Assembly: GCA_903873395.1 (NCBI GenBank)
Contig: CAIQOJ010000110.1
Span: 1 to 64,000, forward strand
Direction of reading: 5' to 3'
Length of the DNA: 64,000 nt
From: an uncultured Acidimicrobiaceae bacterium
GTDB lineage: Bacteria > Actinomycetota > Acidimicrobiia > Acidimicrobiales > RAAP-2
Both the position numbers and the translations under genes were made by a program. This document shows positions 29,997 to 40,106 of this stretch, piece by piece. Position 1 is the first letter of the stretch. Every line of letters starts with the position of its first letter. Under the pieces are notes generated by a model. The model was not told the DNA's origin. It made no database searches and worked only from the letters and a program-made list of their open reading frames with translations.

Positions 29997-30812
29997 TCAG
30001 AGCTGGCCGATGGCCTTGTGGGTCTGAGGGATTACCCGGACGCGCGGGTGGCGGTTGAGTGCCCGGGCCTGGAGCTCGAGCACCTGTGTCGGACTTGGCA
30101 CGGCTGTTGCGGCACCGAATGCCGAGAGCGGCTGCAAGAAGACCTCCACGGCCTCGGGCATGTCGCTAGACGCCTGAGCCACCAGGTCGATCGCTGCGTC
30201 GAACTCGTCGACGTCGGTATCCGCGCTGATCACGATCTTGACCCACGTGGTCAGGCCCGAGGCGAGGGCTTGCGCTAAAAACCGGGATTGGGTGGTCGGA
30301 GCAACGAGTTCGCCGTCGACGCTCGGAAGTTTGATGTCCATGCTCACGTAGGTCAGCCCCGGTGCTGCTCGACGAAGTGCCGGGACGAGGGTCCCGTTGG
30401 TCTCCACCATGACGGGCCATCCGCGCTCGGTCATGAGTCCTGCCAGTCGCTCGAGCCGGCTGCCCTGAAGCAGCGGCTCTCCTCCCGTCAGGCTGATCGA
30501 GTGGTGAGGGGTGTGGTCCCACAGTCGGGCCACTGCCTCCATCACGTCTTCCATCGCCAGGGGGCTCGTCGTCTCTATCCAATCCCGACTGCCGGGCGTC
30601 TGTTCGATCCGACAAGGCCCAGGACGACGCTCGAGTGCTTCGGGCTGGTCGCAGTAGTTGCAGCGGATGTTGCATCCCGTCAGACGGACGAAGACCTGCC
30701 GCTCGCCGACCAGCGCTCCTTCCCCCTGAATAGCCGAGAAGATTTCGGTGATCAACACGTCACGTGGGACGGCGGCACCCGCGGGCGAAGGTGAAGTCAC
30801 AGCGTCAGTCAT
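29997..30812 (-). CDS. queE: 7-carboxy-7-deazaguanine synthase QueE (radical SAM)
   Basis: A 271-residue radical SAM enzyme that rearranges 6-carboxy-tetrahydropterin to 7-carboxy-7-deazaguanine, the second step to preQ0. The N-terminal FSAIQGEGALVGERQVFVRL is diagnostic, followed by the cluster motif CNIRCNYC. SLTGGEPLLQ and MVETNGT mark the SAM-binding core. It is the last gene of queD-queC-queE. Between the CxxxCxxC motif and the glycine motif there is a longer insertion (about 35 residues), as in the QueE subgroups with extended cluster loops. Confidence 0.95.
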   Translation of the reverse strand: MTDAVTSPSPAGAAVPRDVLITEIFSAIQGEGALVGERQVFVRLTGCNIRCNYCDQPEALERRPGPCRIEQTPGSRDWIETTSPLAMEDVMEAVARLWDHTPHHSISLTGGEPLLQGSRLERLAGLMTERGWPVMVETNGTLVPALRRAAPGLTYVSMDIKLPSVDGELVAPTTQSRFLAQALASGLTTWVKIVISADTDVDEFDAAIDLVAQASSDMPEAVEVFLQPLSAFGAATAVPSPTQVLELQARALNRHPRVRVIPQTHKAIGQL

Positions 30813-30858
30813 TGCCTGTCCTGCTCGTTGGAGTCGCTTCTAGAAGTTCATGGTCCAT

Positions 30859-31599
30859 CTATGCGGGATCCGTCTGATTGGGATCCGTCTGGCTGAGATT
30901 GGTGCCTGGCAGATCCGTGCCCGCCGTGTTCAACGGAACACCCAGGGATGGATCGATGGTTCCTGCCTCGGCGAAGCCGCGGGCCCGGAGCACGCATGCG
31001 TCGCAGGAGCCGCATGGTTGGTCGCCGCCTCGATAACAGGACCACGTCATGTGCAGCGGTGCCCGCTCGGCTATGCCGAGTTCCACGATCTGGGCTTTGG
31101 TCAATGAGATCAGCGGCGTGCGAATTTCGATCGGGTTGCCTTCTACGCCCCGCTTCTGCCCGGTGGCGGCCACCCCTCGGAAGGCGTCGATGAACTCGGG
31201 CCGACAGTCCGGATAGCCCGAGTAGTCGAGGGCATTGACCCCGATCCAGATGGCGTCGAGGTCACGTGCCTCAGCAACTCCGAGAGCGACAGCCAGGAAG
31301 ATCGAGTTGCGGGCCGGCACGTAGGTGACCGGGATGCCGTCAGTGGATCCGGAGTCGGGAACGGACAAGGAGTTGTCGGTCAGTGCCGAACCTCCCCACG
31401 CCGAGGCATCAAGGCGCACGACGAGTTGTTCGGCACCGTAGTGGGTGGCTACGGCGGCGGCTCGCTCGAGCTCGATGCGATGACGTTGGCCGTAGTCGAA
31501 GGTCAGCGCCATCGGAGCCGTCCCTCCTTCGCCTGAAGCGAGCGCCATGCAGACCGTCGAGTCGAGGCCGCCCGAGAGAACGACGAGATGTCCGGCCAT
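30859..31599 (-). CDS. queC: 7-cyano-7-deazaguanine (preQ0) synthase QueC
   Basis: A 246-residue ATP-dependent ligase that turns 7-carboxy-7-deazaguanine into preQ0. The PP-loop is VVLSGGLDSTVC at residues about 6-17, followed by ALTFDYGQRH, PARNSIFLAVALG, NALDYSGYPDCRPEF, and a zinc site of four cysteines in CYRGG..CGSCDAC. The ATG at 31599 is two bases after the queD stop. The last 22 residues are an odd low-complexity tail of TDL/TNL/TDP units encoded by a 15-base DNA repeat (30865-30924). The tail is outside the folded family and probably added by repeat expansion. Confidence 0.94.
   Translation of the reverse strand: MAGHLVVLSGGLDSTVCMALASGEGGTAPMALTFDYGQRHRIELERAAAVATHYGAEQLVVRLDASAWGGSALTDNSLSVPDSGSTDGIPVTYVPARNSIFLAVALGVAEARDLDAIWIGVNALDYSGYPDCRPEFIDAFRGVAATGQKRGVEGNPIEIRTPLISLTKAQIVELGIAERAPLHMTWSCYRGGDQPCGSCDACVLRARGFAEAGTIDPSLGVPLNTAGTDLPGTNLSQTDPNQTDPA
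30865..30924. repeat. 15-base tandem repeat encoding the QueC C-terminal tail
   Basis: Four units start at 30865, 30880, 30895 and 30910. The first two are nearly identical (GGGATCCGTCTGATT and GGGATCCGTCTGGCT) and the others are degenerate. In the queC frame they give pentapeptides of the type x-Q/G-T-D/N-x. Confidence 0.75.
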
Positions 31600-31601
31600 G
31601 A

Positions 31602-31970
31602 CTACGAGTTGGATTCCGAGATGACATCGACCCAGGAGTCGGCTGTCTCCCAGAGACGTAGGGCAGTTGGCTCGATGCCTGCGGTAGTGAGCACGGCCCA
31701 AATCTCGTGAGCCAAGAGCTCGGCCGTGGGATTCTCCACCAACTGATTGAGGTCCTGGTGGTCAAAGCGTTCGATGACCTCGCGTTGCACCACCTCGTGG
31801 AGCACGTCGAAGTCAAGGACGACCCCATTGGCATCCAGGGGACCCTCGAGAGTGACGTCTAGGCGATAGGAGTGGCCGTGCAGATTTCGGCACTTACCGG
31901 GGTGCCAGGCAAGCCTGTGGGCAGCCTCGAAGCGGAAGGTGCACGTCACGCGGGTGCGAAGTCCGGCCAT
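31602..31970 (-). CDS. queD: 6-carboxy-5,6,7,8-tetrahydropterin synthase QueD
   Basis: A 122-residue enzyme of the PTPS/QueD family that converts dihydroneopterin triphosphate to 6-carboxy-tetrahydropterin, the entry to deazaguanine synthesis. The zinc histidines are in FRFEAAHRL and LHGHSYRLDVTLEG, and the catalytic cysteine precedes them in KCRNLHGH. The motif FDHQDLNQLVENPTAELLA is typical. It is the first gene of the queD-queC-queE operon, with queC only two bases downstream. No folE, queF, tgt or queA is in the window, so the final product (queuosine, preQ0 or a DNA modification) is not decided. Confidence 0.94.
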   Translation of the reverse strand: MAGLRTRVTCTFRFEAAHRLAWHPGKCRNLHGHSYRLDVTLEGPLDANGVVLDFDVLHEVVQREVIERFDHQDLNQLVENPTAELLAHEIWAVLTTAGIEPTALRLWETADSWVDVISESNS

Positions 31971-32102: not shown

Positions 32103-35801
<3,699 letters not shown>

Positions 35802-35852: not shown

Positions 35853-37199
35853 TCAGGTCAGGAAGTCGCGAGCTAGGCCGATCCACATCTCGGTCGACAG
35901 GCGGAGCGACTCGACGTCGACATGTTCGTCGATGCCGTGGAACATGGCCCCATACTCCTCGAAGGAGATGGCTCGGCTGTGCAGGCCAAAGCCGTAGGAG
36001 ACGCTTCCCAAGGTGCGCGTGTAGCGCGCATCCGTGGCCCCAACCGAGAGGTAGGGAAGGATTCGGCCACCCGGATAGAAGCCCTCGGTGACACGCTGCA
36101 GGGCATCCCACAGTGGTGTGTCGATGGGGGAGAGGGTGGCCGGCTCTTCGGCCAAGAAGGCGATCTCCACGTGGTCGACGAGGTCGCCGAGCACATCGGC
36201 GAGCATGGCTCGAACCTCGCCGGTGTCCCAGCCCGGAAGCGACCGGATGTCGAGCTCGAGCTCGACGCGATCCGGGATGACATTGGTCTTGGTTCCAGCT
36301 CGCAGAACTGTGGGGGCAATGGTGGTGTGGGTGCAGGCGTGGGCCTGGCGGGCAAGGCCGAGCAAGGGAAGGTTGTCGCAGAAGTCGTCGATCTGTGCGG
36401 GGTCGAGGAATGGCTCGGCGAGTTCGGCGGGCAGGCCAAGGCCTGAGATGAAACGGGTCCACGCCTCGTGGAGGTCCGGGGTGGGCCGATAGGCATCGAT
36501 CCTGCGAATCACTTCGGCCGCAGTCACCAGGGCATTGTCGGTGCGAAGGGGCTGGGATGCGTGTCCCGGAGTTCCTTTGATGGTGAGCACGCACCAATAG
36601 ACCCCCTTTTCGCCCACCAGCACGGGCAGTCGGGCGGCACCGTCCATTCCGTCCATGGGGAAGCCACCTGACTCCGTGATGACATAGTCGGTGCGGATGT
36701 CCTCGGCGGCGGTGTCGCACAGCCAACGAGTGCCAAACGTCGACAACGCCTCCTCGTCGGCGACGGCGATGTAGTGGAGGTCGCCCAAGGGCCGAAAGCC
36801 CGACGCGGCCAGATGGCGCATGCTGGTAGCCATGGTGGCCGTCAGGTTCAGCATGTCGATTGCTCCACGCCCCCACACCGACCCGTCAATCAGTTCGCCC
36901 CCAAAGGGGTCATGCGTCCAGTCGTCGGCGTTGGCCGGCACCACGTCAGTGTGTCCGAGCAAGGTGAGGCTCGGGGCGGTGGGATCTGACCCGGCGAGCT
37001 TGGCCACAAGCGACGTTCGACCCGGAGCGGGCTCGTAGGTCTGGAGGTCCACGCCTGACCCCTCGAGGTAGGAATGGATGATGGAGGCGCTGCGATCCTC
37101 GTGGCCCGATGCAGCGGTGCCGTCGTTGACGCAGGCATTCCGGATCAGGTGCTGGAGGAGATCGGTGGCTTCGCCCGTGCGGTTCGACTCGTCGCTCAC
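35853..37199 (-). CDS. M20-family metallopeptidase/carboxypeptidase
   Basis: A 448-residue M20 peptidase. Two-zinc ligands are visible in TLLGHTDVVPA, VWGRGAIDM, VADEEALST, and the C-terminal MFHGIDEHV; VITESGGFP also matches the family. The inserted dimerisation domain begins GTPGHASQPL. It is similar to cytosolic dipeptidase/carboxypeptidase PM20D1-like or DapE/ArgE relatives, but the specific substrate is not clear. No signal peptide is present. It ends just after kgd in convergent orientation (51-base gap). Confidence 0.9.
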   Translation of the reverse strand: MSDESNRTGEATDLLQHLIRNACVNDGTAASGHEDRSASIIHSYLEGSGVDLQTYEPAPGRTSLVAKLAGSDPTAPSLTLLGHTDVVPANADDWTHDPFGGELIDGSVWGRGAIDMLNLTATMATSMRHLAASGFRPLGDLHYIAVADEEALSTFGTRWLCDTAAEDIRTDYVITESGGFPMDGMDGAARLPVLVGEKGVYWCVLTIKGTPGHASQPLRTDNALVTAAEVIRRIDAYRPTPDLHEAWTRFISGLGLPAELAEPFLDPAQIDDFCDNLPLLGLARQAHACTHTTIAPTVLRAGTKTNVIPDRVELELDIRSLPGWDTGEVRAMLADVLGDLVDHVEIAFLAEEPATLSPIDTPLWDALQRVTEGFYPGGRILPYLSVGATDARYTRTLGSVSYGFGLHSRAISFEEYGAMFHGIDEHVDVESLRLSTEMWIGLARDFLT

Positions 37200-37338
37200 A
37201 CGGCGATCCTAGGTCTTTGGCGTGTGTGCGAACCCGGCACCCTGATCGCCAAGAGGCCAAACGTTTTGCCGCGAGGTAGGTACTCCAGCCCGACCATGAC
37301 CGATGTATTGCTGCTCGGATGATTGACTGGAGGAACTT

Positions 37339-38700
37339 ATGGACCCCGAATCACCAGCGCGACGTCAGATCGTCGTCGACGGCTCGAACCTCGCCACCGA
37401 GGGCCGCACCGCTCCAAGCCTGGCGCAGTTGGACGAAGCGATCCACGCGTTTCTCAGCGAACACCCTGGATTTTCCTCGGCCGAGGTCATTGTTGTGGTC
37501 GATGCCACATTCGGCCATCGGATTGACCCTGCAGAGGTGCCAGCATTCGAGCAAGCCATCGAACACGGCGAACTGGTGACACCGCCAGCTGGAGCAGTCG
37601 GCCGGGGTGACGGGTTCATCTTGCGCATCGCCGAGAAATCGGGCGCCCTCGTCCTCTCTAACGACTCCTTCCAAGAGTTCCACGCAGAACGCCCTTGGCT
37701 CTTCGAGCCAGGCCGCCTCATCGGCGGCAAGCCGGTGCCGGGCGTGGGTTGGGTCTTCACTCCCCGCACTCCAGTGCGAGGTCCAAAGAGTCGGGCCGTG
37801 ACGAGTCAGGCCAAGCGCGAAGCTCGAGGACCCGGGAGTGCCAACCAAGGTAGTGACACAGAACGGCCCACCTCCACCACGGGTGCTGCGTCATCTCGGG
37901 GAGGCAAGCAGAGCCGAGTGGCAGAGACTCCGCCGCCTGCTTCGCCGTCCGATGAACCACAGACGTCCACCGTGGTCAAGGTCCTCAAGGCCATCAAGGT
38001 GATCAAGGGCGGGAAGGCTGCCAAGGCGACCAAGGCCGCCAAGGCCACTAAGGCTGCCAAGGCGACCAAGGCGACCACATCCTCCACTGCCACCAAGGCC
38101 TCATCAGCATCTAAGGCACCAGCATCGAAGGCACCAGCGTCGAAGGCGGGAGCGTCGAAGGCACCAGCGTCGAAGGCACCAGCGTCGAAGGCACCAGCGT
38201 CGAAGGCGGCAGCGACCAAGGCCGCTGGATCCAAGGCGGGCACATCGACCGAATCAACCGAATCAATGGATGGATCAGCCGATGCACCCCGGGCAGCGCG
38301 ACCGAAAAAGGCCACCAACGCTGGATCAGCACCGAAGTCCGCCCCTGCATCGAAGACCGCCAAGGGAGCATCGGGATCAGGACCAGCCGATGGTCCGGAT
38401 CGCCCGGCACCTGCCCGCGTCCCCCGTACAACGGAAGAGCTCAACGATCCCAAGTCGTTCTTCGACTTCATCGGCGCTCATCCCGTCGGCAGTTCGTTCG
38501 AAGGGACGGTGGCGGCGTTCACGTCGCATGGCGCCCACATCGATGTCGAAGGGATGCTCTGTCATGTCCCCCTTCGCAACCTCGGTGACCCCGCCCCCCA
38601 AAAGGCTCGCCAGGTGCTGACCAAAGGGGAGACCCGGACCTTCTCTCTGGTATCGCTTGATGCACCACGCCGTCGAGCTGAGGTCACTCTCGTCGAGTGA
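37339..38700 (+). CDS. NYN (Zc3h12a-like) ribonuclease domain - Lys/Ala linker - S1 RNA-binding domain
   Basis: A 453-residue protein of three parts. Residues about 8-150 look like a NYN/PIN-fold nuclease of the Zc3h12a type. Acidic residues sit in IVVDGSNLATEG, VVVDATFGHR, GRGDGFILRIAEK and LVLSNDSFQEF, and the domain ends near PGVGWVFTP. Residues about 155-365 are a disordered linker with runs of KAxKA and SKAPA, encoded partly by a 15-base array. Residues about 372-453 (SFFDFIGAHPVGSSFEGTVA, then HIDVEGMLCHVPL) resemble an S1/OB-fold RNA-binding domain. A strong GGAGG precedes the ATG. A role in RNA cleavage or turnover is inferred; I know no characterised homologue. Confidence 0.75.
   Translation: MDPESPARRQIVVDGSNLATEGRTAPSLAQLDEAIHAFLSEHPGFSSAEVIVVVDATFGHRIDPAEVPAFEQAIEHGELVTPPAGAVGRGDGFILRIAEKSGALVLSNDSFQEFHAERPWLFEPGRLIGGKPVPGVGWVFTPRTPVRGPKSRAVTSQAKREARGPGSANQGSDTERPTSTTGAASSRGGKQSRVAETPPPASPSDEPQTSTVVKVLKAIKVIKGGKAAKATKAAKATKAAKATKATTSSTATKASSASKAPASKAPASKAGASKAPASKAPASKAPASKAAATKAAGSKAGTSTESTESMDGSADAPRAARPKKATNAGSAPKSAPASKTAKGASGSGPADGPDRPAPARVPRTTEELNDPKSFFDFIGAHPVGSSFEGTVAAFTSHGAHIDVEGMLCHVPLRNLGDPAPQKARQVLTKGETRTFSLVSLDAPRRRAEVTLVE
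38113..38217 (+). repeat. 15-base tandem array inside the NYN-S1 linker
   Basis: Seven 15-base units, mostly AAGGCACCAGCGTCG with variants, run from 38113 to 38217 and encode KAPAS pentapeptides. The length is in frame, so copy number can change without frameshift. Confidence 0.88.
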
Positions 38701-38887
38701 GCCTTCGCCGCCGGTCCGAACTGCCCGCCGGTCCGAACTGCCTTGCTCTCACCCACTCCCGGTTGATCCCCGTGTGAAGCCGGCGCCCGGCCTCCGCGTC
38801 AATCGCCCGATCGGGTGACAGTCGTCGGTGACGCTGCAGCCCGAGCTCTCGGCCCATGGGACCGCTGACCGCCGATACCCTGTGGCC

Positions 38888-39328
38888 GTGCGAGCCGACG
38901 ACTACCTGCCTCATCGTGACCCCTTCTTGTTCGTGAGCGAACTGCGATCCGTCGAGCCCGGTGCCTCGGCGAGCGGTGCTTGGCAGCTGACCGGCGACGA
39001 AGCGTTCTTTGCTGGGCACTTCCCCGGTCGGCCGACGCTTCCTGGTGTGCTGATGGTGGAGGCACTTGCTCAGCTCGGGGGAGTCGCTGTGCTGGCCGAC
39101 CCGGCGCATGCCGGCAAACTCCCGCTGTTCGGCGGGATCGAGCGTGCTCGTTTCCGCCGCCAGGTGGTGCCGGGTGACCTTCTCGAGCTCCAGGTGACTC
39201 TGGGGCGTATGTCGGCGAGGGCGGGGAAGGGGTCGGGCCGTGCCACGGTCAATGGCGAGTTGGCCTGTGAAGCGGAGCTGCTCTTCGTGCTGGTCGATGC
39301 GCAGCCATCCACGGACACCGAGGCCTGA
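38888..39328 (+). CDS. FabZ-like 3-hydroxyacyl-ACP dehydratase
   Basis: A 146-residue hotdog-fold protein matching FabZ, which dehydrates 3-hydroxyacyl-ACP in fatty acid synthesis. The catalytic histidine is in DYLPHRDPFLFVSEL, followed by GHFPGRPTLPGVLMVEALAQ with the catalytic glutamate, and then FRRQVVPGDLLELQV. The GTG at 38888 begins the family-like sequence; GTG 38882 or 38828 are alternatives, and none has a strong ribosome site. It lies just before exonuclease III with a 4-base gap. No other fatty-acid synthesis genes are nearby except plsX far downstream. Confidence 0.87.
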   Translation: MRADDYLPHRDPFLFVSELRSVEPGASASGAWQLTGDEAFFAGHFPGRPTLPGVLMVEALAQLGGVAVLADPAHAGKLPLFGGIERARFRRQVVPGDLLELQVTLGRMSARAGKGSGRATVNGELACEAELLFVLVDAQPSTDTEA

Positions 39329-39332
39329 TCCG

Positions 39333-40106
39333 GTGCGTATCGCCACGTGGAACGTGAACTCGCTGACGGCCCGACTGGCCCGTGTCGAGGAGTGGATCGC
39401 CTACGCCCAACCTGACGTGCTCTGTCTCCAAGAGACGAAACAGGCGGATGTCGCGTTCCCTCACGGCGCCTTTGCCGCGCTGGGTTATGAGTCGGCACAC
39501 CATGGGGACGGCAGGTGGAACGGGGTAGCCATCATCAGTCGGGTGGGTTTGGACAGAGTCTCCACGGGCATGGGATCGGAGCACGATGCCGAAGGAACCC
39601 GCCTCATCGCCGCTGACTGCGGTGGGGCCCGAATCGTGTCGGTCTACGTACCCAACGGTCGTGCTCTTGATGACCCGCACTACCCAGCGAAGCTGGCGTG
39701 GCTAGGCCGCCTCCGAGAGTTCTTGGACGAGACGACGTCGTCGGATCAGCCTCTGGCCGTGTGTGGCGATTTCAATGTGGCCCCTGAAGACCGTGACGTG
39801 TGGGACCCTTCGCAGTTCGACGGTATGACCCACGTGAGCGAACCCGAGCGGGCTGCCTTGGCCGAACTCGAGGCCTGGGGTCTGGTCGATGTCTTCCGAC
39901 GGTGCTACCCCGATGACAGGCTGTTCAGTTGGTGGGACTACCGAGGGGGTTCGTTCCATCGCCACCGAGGCATGCGGATCGACCTGATCCTGGCCACGGA
40001 AGTCCTAGCTGAGCGGACCAGTTTTGCCCTCATCGACCGTCAAGCGCGCAAAGGTGAGAAGCCTTCCGACCACACACCGGTGTTCATCGACACGTCTGTC
40101 GAGTGA
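39333..40106 (+). CDS. xthA: Exodeoxyribonuclease III (AP endonuclease)
   Basis: A 257-residue base-excision repair nuclease of the ExoIII/APE1 family that cuts abasic DNA. The motifs are complete: RIATWNVNSLTAR, LCLQETK (the metal glutamate), GARIVSVYVPNG, LAVCGDFNVAP (the catalytic Asp/Asn), RIDLILAT, and PSDHTPV at the end with the general-base histidine. The start is GTG 39333, four bases after the FabZ-like stop. It precedes a convergent helicase gene with a 15-base gap. Confidence 0.95.
   Translation: MRIATWNVNSLTARLARVEEWIAYAQPDVLCLQETKQADVAFPHGAFAALGYESAHHGDGRWNGVAIISRVGLDRVSTGMGSEHDAEGTRLIAADCGGARIVSVYVPNGRALDDPHYPAKLAWLGRLREFLDETTSSDQPLAVCGDFNVAPEDRDVWDPSQFDGMTHVSEPERAALAELEAWGLVDVFRRCYPDDRLFSWWDYRGGSFHRHRGMRIDLILATEVLAERTSFALIDRQARKGEKPSDHTPVFIDTSVE

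Follow-up and report, generated by a model that had tools for sequence, protein, structure and literature searches.

Gene and Domain Organization

Does a single gene of an uncultured Acidimicrobiaceae bacterium encode a nuclease together with the means of holding it on RNA? The gene in question, called NYN-S1 here, lies in a window of 64,000 nucleotides, which is the whole stretch of DNA that was analyzed. Its product is predicted to consist of an RNA-cutting enzyme, an RNA-binding domain, and a long, positively charged disordered stretch. The features of the gene and its surroundings are collected in Table 1. NYN-S1 is present in a single copy and is the sole PF11977 match in its own genome. 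The identity of the two domains, NYN and S1, is almost certain.

The structure of the protein was modelled with AlphaFold2, using 49 aligned sequences. As the original prediction had anticipated, both an NYN and an S1 fold were obtained; the NYN blocks within residues 11-140 had pLDDT values of mostly 80-91, and the S1 domain reached about 97. A second model was made for a relative (L140) in which the charged segment forms a C-terminal tail. With the tail removed, both domains scored mostly above 90, and the pTM was 0.58, as expected for domains that are flexibly joined. The relative placement of NYN and S1 is not fixed by AlphaFold, and this counts against the tethering mechanism proposed below. 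No named NCBIfam family exists for the NYN-S1 fusion; the relatives gave partial matches only, mostly to ribosomal S1. In the open-access literature, no paper was found that deals with an NYN-S1 protein or with NYN domains of Acidimicrobiia. A perfect 17-base tandem repeat (CCGCCGGTCCGAACTGC x2) is located at 38708-38741 of the window, starting 8 bases past the NYN-S1 stop codon. The chance expectation of such a repeat within the window is 0.08.

Table 1. Features of the NYN-S1 gene and of its neighbourhood in the window.
Feature	Coordinates	Strand	Basis or remark
kgd (multifunctional 2-oxoglutarate dehydrogenase), upstream neighbour	32103..35801	+	conserved neighbour
M20 peptidase gene, between kgd and NYN-S1	35853-37199	-	opposite strand
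GGAGG, likely ribosome-binding site	37329..37333	+	5 nt upstream of ATG, read from sequence
NYN-S1 gene	37339..38700	+	453 aa, ATG 37339 to stop 38700, one open frame
NYN (Zc3h12a-type PIN-like) nuclease domain, residues 8-148	37360..37782	+	PF11977 and structure matches
Asp14 codon, DGSN motif, predicted metal ligand	37378..37380	+	invariant 89/89; aligns with DGSN of ZC3H12A/C, KHNYN
Asp55 codon, invariant acidic residue	37501..37503	+	89/89
Asp91 codon, GRGD motif, predicted metal ligand	37609..37611	+	89/89; aligns with second Asp of ZC3H12A/C DD pair
Asp109 codon, SND motif, predicted metal ligand	37663..37665	+	89/89; aligns with SND of ZC3H12A/C, KHNYN
Disordered Lys/Ala/Ser-rich segment, residues 164-364	37828..38430	+	nearly all pLDDT < 50; composition; net charge about +24
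9/18/27-base in-frame arrays, K-A-A / K-A-T	37976..38100	+	Tandem Repeats Finder
15-base in-frame array, SKAPA repeats	38105..38222	+	Tandem Repeats Finder; 7.9 copies, 88% matches
S1 OB-fold domain with preceding helix, residues 370-453	38446..38697	+	pLDDT about 97; VIA Z 15.1 to RpsA
FabA-like hotdog protein, downstream neighbour	38828..39328	+	PF07977, 1.1e-23
Exonuclease III-like protein (xth), downstream neighbour	39315..40106	+	PF03372, 1.8e-36

NYN Domain and Its Acidic Site

The N-terminus had been likened to the Zc3h12a-type NYN nucleases, and this resemblance was borne out by both profile and structure comparisons. PF11977 (RNase_Zc3h12a) matched residues 8-118 with an E-value of 3.6e-8 and 33.7 bits, above the Pfam cut-off of 23. 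The same profile matched all 88 members scanned with Pfam (39 tail-type and 49 linker-type, named after the position of the charged segment) at E <= 0.01. The model has a PIN-like alpha/beta fold. Its VIA Z against solved structures was 13-14 for the Regnase family (13.9 for ZC3H12C (7ndk), 13.8 for KHNYN, and 13.3 for MCPIP1/Regnase-1), and 12-12.6 for PRORP1/2, with the value of 12.6 belonging to PRORP2. When the profile of the domain was searched against the PDB, KHNYN was found at 1.9e-5 and ZC3H12C/A at about 3e-5.

Putative catalytic acidic residues are present. In an alignment of 89 relatives, D14, D55, D91, and D109 show no variation, and neither do G15, S16, N17, S107, and N108. Where Regnase has the first Asp of its DD pair, NYN-S1 has Gly90, and its way of binding metal may therefore not be the same. 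NYN-S1 has the PF11977 domain, the DGSN and SND motifs, and the PIN-like fold in common with Regnase/ZC3H12 and KHNYN. In those proteins the RNA tether is a CCCH zinc finger or a KH domain, whereas in NYN-S1 it would be formed by S1 and the Lys/Ala-rich disordered segment. Since no CCCH zinc finger family was among the Pfam matches of the 88 members scanned, NYN-S1 is not a Regnase proper. It also differs from these proteins in being bacterial and chromosomal, with a housekeeping-like distribution.

Another bacterial protein with an NYN fold is the CRISPR-associated ribonuclease of Bacteroides. Three catalytic Asp are listed both for its active site and for that of human MARF1 (PMC11346440). 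This distant protein, from B. fragilis, is a Mn-dependent, non-specific single-strand endoribonuclease which requires the first Asp (PMC11346440). It is unlike NYN-S1 in that its nearest structures are VPA0982 and MARF1, it is encoded in a CRISPR locus, and S1 is not mentioned in the paper (PMC11346440). For NYN-S1, the conserved site leads us to predict a metal-dependent endoribonuclease activity.

A second NYN paralogue, shorter and distant, was seen beside the NYN-S1 gene in four genomes (G047, G055, G150, and G240), in frames of 153-256 aa with E-values of 1e-10 to 1e-15.

S1 Domain

The S1 domain proposed for the C-terminus was found as well. In the window protein, the match to PF00575 (residues 381-448; E 0.0025, 18.6 bits) is below the Pfam cut-off of 22, but the profile was detected in 35 of the 39 tail-type and 18 of the 49 linker-type relatives, at best with 9e-10. 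These matches, together with the pLDDT of the model, secure the identity of the domain. Compared with residues 280-366 of M. tuberculosis RpsA, the S1 model, a five-stranded OB barrel, gave a VIA Z of 15.1 and an rmsd of 1.1 Å. The family S1 profile, searched against RpsA of the same genome, matched domain 4 best (28.0 bits, leading helix included) and domain 3 next (19.1). The fourth S1 domain of RpsA is thus the nearest by structure and by own-genome profile, at an identity of about 22-25%. In contrast to RpsA, NYN-S1 has a single S1 domain, which is fused to a nuclease.

The 49-sequence alignment shows no variation at four residues of the domain, H397, G398, D441, and R445. We take the positions of H397, D441, and R445 to correspond to the RNA-binding residues described for the S1 domain of PNPase. 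RNA binding by the S1 domain of NYN-S1 is predicted. An S1 fold can also bind proteins or the ribosome instead of free RNA, which is a point against the tethering mechanism.

Charged Lys/Ala-Rich Segment

The Lys/Ala stretch had been described as a disordered linker expanded by 15-base repeats. Its disorder and the in-frame 15-base repeats were confirmed; its role as a linker was not, since a tail after S1 takes its place in over a third of the members. Placement of the segment was classed by simple length and charge thresholds in 110 distinct members. This revealed 58 proteins with the segment between NYN and S1, 40 with the segment after S1, 7 with both, and 5 under the thresholds. In tail-type members the spacer between NYN and S1 is short, mostly 36-85 aa, and the stretch is therefore not essentially a linker. 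Mapped on the tree, the four placement labels require 15 changes versus 42.7 in shuffles, which indicates that placement is inherited yet has shifted several times. All eight members from other orders are tail-type and form one clade, so the tail state may be older, as far as an unrooted tree allows.

Of the 106 complete members, every one has a net positive charge in its longer disordered segment (+5 to +60, median +27), which contains 17% K and 27% A. Tandem arrays of differing units were found inside it in 95 of these members, and the period is divisible by three in 94 of the 95. Consequently, repeat turnover continually rewrites the segment while charge and frame are retained. The expansion by 15-base units holds for the array at 38105-38222 and is specific to the window species, not a trait of the family; the repeat units of the relatives differ, with the same chemistry. 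An affinity of the charged segment for RNA or RNP is predicted.

In two relatives, L089 and L021, two IF2_N domains (PF04760) were detected between NYN and S1, at 2e-16 and 1.5e-15, respectively. The two are sisters on the tree with 97% SH-aLRT. Outside this family, IF2_N is known as a domain of translation initiation factor IF-2. Judged by eye, L116 carries the same motif.

Further observations concern the stretch between the domains. A short motif, AIAxATxEA...P and then RRRR before S1, is conserved in the short linker of the A3 tail-type members. The motif is predicted as a helix in the L140 model (residues 164-177) and was not seen in the window protein. In L014 and L035, which are identical in sequence, NYN and S1 do not share one reading frame but lie in two that overlap, as after a frameshift inside the repeat tract; this break could be real or an assembly error. 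An antisense ORF of 221 aa with FDAGA repeats (37806-38471, minus strand) is thought to be non-genic, a by-product of the in-frame K/A repeats.

Genomic Context, Distribution, and Selection

Most loci share the order kgd, NYN-S1, FabA/Z-like gene, and xth, with kgd on the same strand. The name kgd was assigned from the sequence. In 26 of 53 loci the NYN-S1 start is <=30 bp from the kgd stop or overlaps kgd. Elsewhere the two genes are separated by an opposite-strand gene, either for a HAD-type hydrolase or, as in the window, for an M20 peptidase. The gene order looks ancestral. Because of these intervening genes, the adjacency to kgd denotes a conserved locus and not a pathway, and a function read from the neighbourhood was rejected. 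The neighbours are metabolic or DNA-repair genes, and none of them is a partner that hints at a substrate. Elsewhere in the window (29997-31701, minus strand), QueC adjoins a radical SAM protein, which is likely a 7-deazaguanine (queuosine precursor) pair.

A NYN-S1 match was obtained in 59 of 61 close genomes, in one of them (G044) only via K/A-rich sequence. Most of the Acidimicrobiales members checked carry the gene. In the class sample, 58 of 198 genomes were positive, including families outside the order, and 140 were without a match. Among the 396 genomes sampled from the phylum, 28 were positive. Every one of them is a member of the class Acidimicrobiia, no NYN-S1 was found outside this class, and no genome but these 28 has any PF11977 match. 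The best 80 loci listed in a GTDB scan bear Acidimicrobiia or unclassified actinobacteria labels, apart from one MAG labelled Acidobacteria. No NYN-S1 match was found in plasmid records, in phage records, or among the PADLOC defence models; a defence or mobile-element origin was rejected on these grounds.

The dN/dS ratio is well under 1 in both domains, at about 0.05-0.1 for NYN and, for the most part, 0.06-0.2 for S1. Among near relatives, dN of NYN is about 0.1, and dS is 1.2-2.2. This data indicates that NYN-S1 is under strong purifying selection. The gene is chromosomal and vertically inherited, with conserved synteny. The low dN/dS and the recurrence of the fusion in the 110 distinct members of the tree argue that it is more than a product of chance. 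It allowed us to conclude that the architecture is real, well conserved, and apparently uncharacterised, with known parts in a new arrangement throughout a whole bacterial lineage.

Proposed Mechanism and Alternative Explanations

We consider it probable that NYN-S1 is a nuclease with an RNA tether, i.e., a predicted metal-dependent endoribonuclease that S1 and the polycation would keep bound to RNA. The protein would be an accessory endoribonuclease of Acidimicrobiia. Its NYN/PIN-like domain would bind one or two divalent metal ions via D14, D91, and D109 (with D55) and would hydrolyse single-stranded RNA. The S1 domain, whose closest counterpart is domain 4 of RpsA, would likewise bind RNA in single-stranded form, and the positively charged disordered segment would provide non-specific RNA/RNP affinity and reach. 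The catalytic domain could thereby be kept near mRNA, possibly at the ribosome, or within an RNA-rich assembly. We infer a role in RNA turnover, and likewise the substrate.

Besides RNase E/G and RNase J, the same genome encodes an RNase P RNA (RF00010, 239 bits). NYN-S1 would therefore be an extra RNase, and its service as a substitute for any of the three was rejected. It may take part in RNA turnover or processing alongside RNase E and RNase J, without replacing either. Across the class, no correlation was found between the presence of the gene and the absence of RNase E/J; with or without NYN-S1, a genome almost always has RNase E/G and in most cases RNase J. Two genomes with NYN-S1, G240 (one contig, 95% complete) and G213, have no RNase E/G match by PF10150. 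RNase E shares the logic proposed for NYN-S1, since it combines a nuclease, S1, and a long disordered segment able to gather RNA and partners. The two differ in their unrelated nuclease folds and are encoded separately in this genome.

A narrower form of the tethering mechanism is an mRNA endonuclease docked on the ribosome, in which S1, the polycation, and, in one lineage, IF2_N would put NYN on 30S or translating ribosomes, to cut mRNA there much as Rae1/YacP of Bacillus does. The closeness of S1, with its leading helix, to the fourth domain of RpsA and the two IF2_N domains of L089 and L021 point to the ribosome, but they prove nothing. IF2_N is limited to one small lineage, and many proteins with S1 domains do not sit on the ribosome. 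To our knowledge, Rae1/YacP of Bacillus subtilis belongs to a different NYN family, without S1 and without a polycationic segment, which weakens the analogy. It is likewise a bacterial protein of the NYN superfamily, and in the passage quoted in PMC11346440 it is a translation-linked RNase which acts in a ribosome-dependent manner. On this evidence, docking on the ribosome is a tentative and rather unlikely reading. Somewhat less likely still is a more elaborate proposal, namely a class-specific, ribosome- or mRNP-tethered endoribonuclease that would give Acidimicrobiia translation-coupled mRNA decay by a Regnase-type nuclease, independent of RNase E and J. Here the polycation, selected for charge alone and repeatedly moved between linker and tail, would drive recruitment into RNA-rich assemblies.

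NYN-S1 might instead process the ends of stable RNA (rRNA or tRNA), in analogy to PRORP and other PIN-type enzymes; structured precursors would then be its substrates, recognised through S1 and the basic segment. The resemblance of the fold to PRORP1/2 agrees with this, and the wide conservation in the order and the strong purifying selection would suit a housekeeping role. However, the RNase P RNA leaves no need of NYN-S1 for tRNA 5' maturation, and the 140 class genomes without a match make an essential universal step unlikely. With regard to PRORP/HARP features, no PPR domain was among the Pfam matches of the window protein and the 88 members. We regard stable-RNA processing as improbable.

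It is very improbable that the nuclease is inactive and that the protein binds nucleic acid or organises the nucleoid, its K/A stretch acting in the way of histone H1/HU tails and its NYN fold serving only as a scaffold. The K/A segments of a few relatives gave weak matches to the histone H1-like HC2, and Gly stands in for one of the two Asp in the Regnase DD pair. Nevertheless, few parts of the protein are as conserved as the four acidic residues and the DGSN, GRGD, and SND motifs around them, for which a mere scaffold would have no need. Finally, toxins and defence systems often employ PIN/NYN folds, but it is scarcely credible that a single-copy gene in conserved synteny with kgd and xth encodes the toxin of a toxin-antitoxin system or a nuclease directed against phages; there is no antitoxin-like partner and no match in PADLOC, plasmids, or phages.

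Significance

Work on PF11977 nucleases has centred on their control of immune mRNAs in animals. In NYN-S1, the same domain is broadly conserved in a bacterial lineage, is under strong selection, and is joined to an RpsA-like S1 domain; every PF11977 match in the phylum sample belongs to the NYN-S1 lineage. The more than 100 relatives, in which the charge of the segment is kept and its sequence and position are not, form a natural comparison set for the role of disordered segments in RNases. With NYN-S1, the RNA metabolism of actinobacteria would gain an RNase that is so far uncharacterised.
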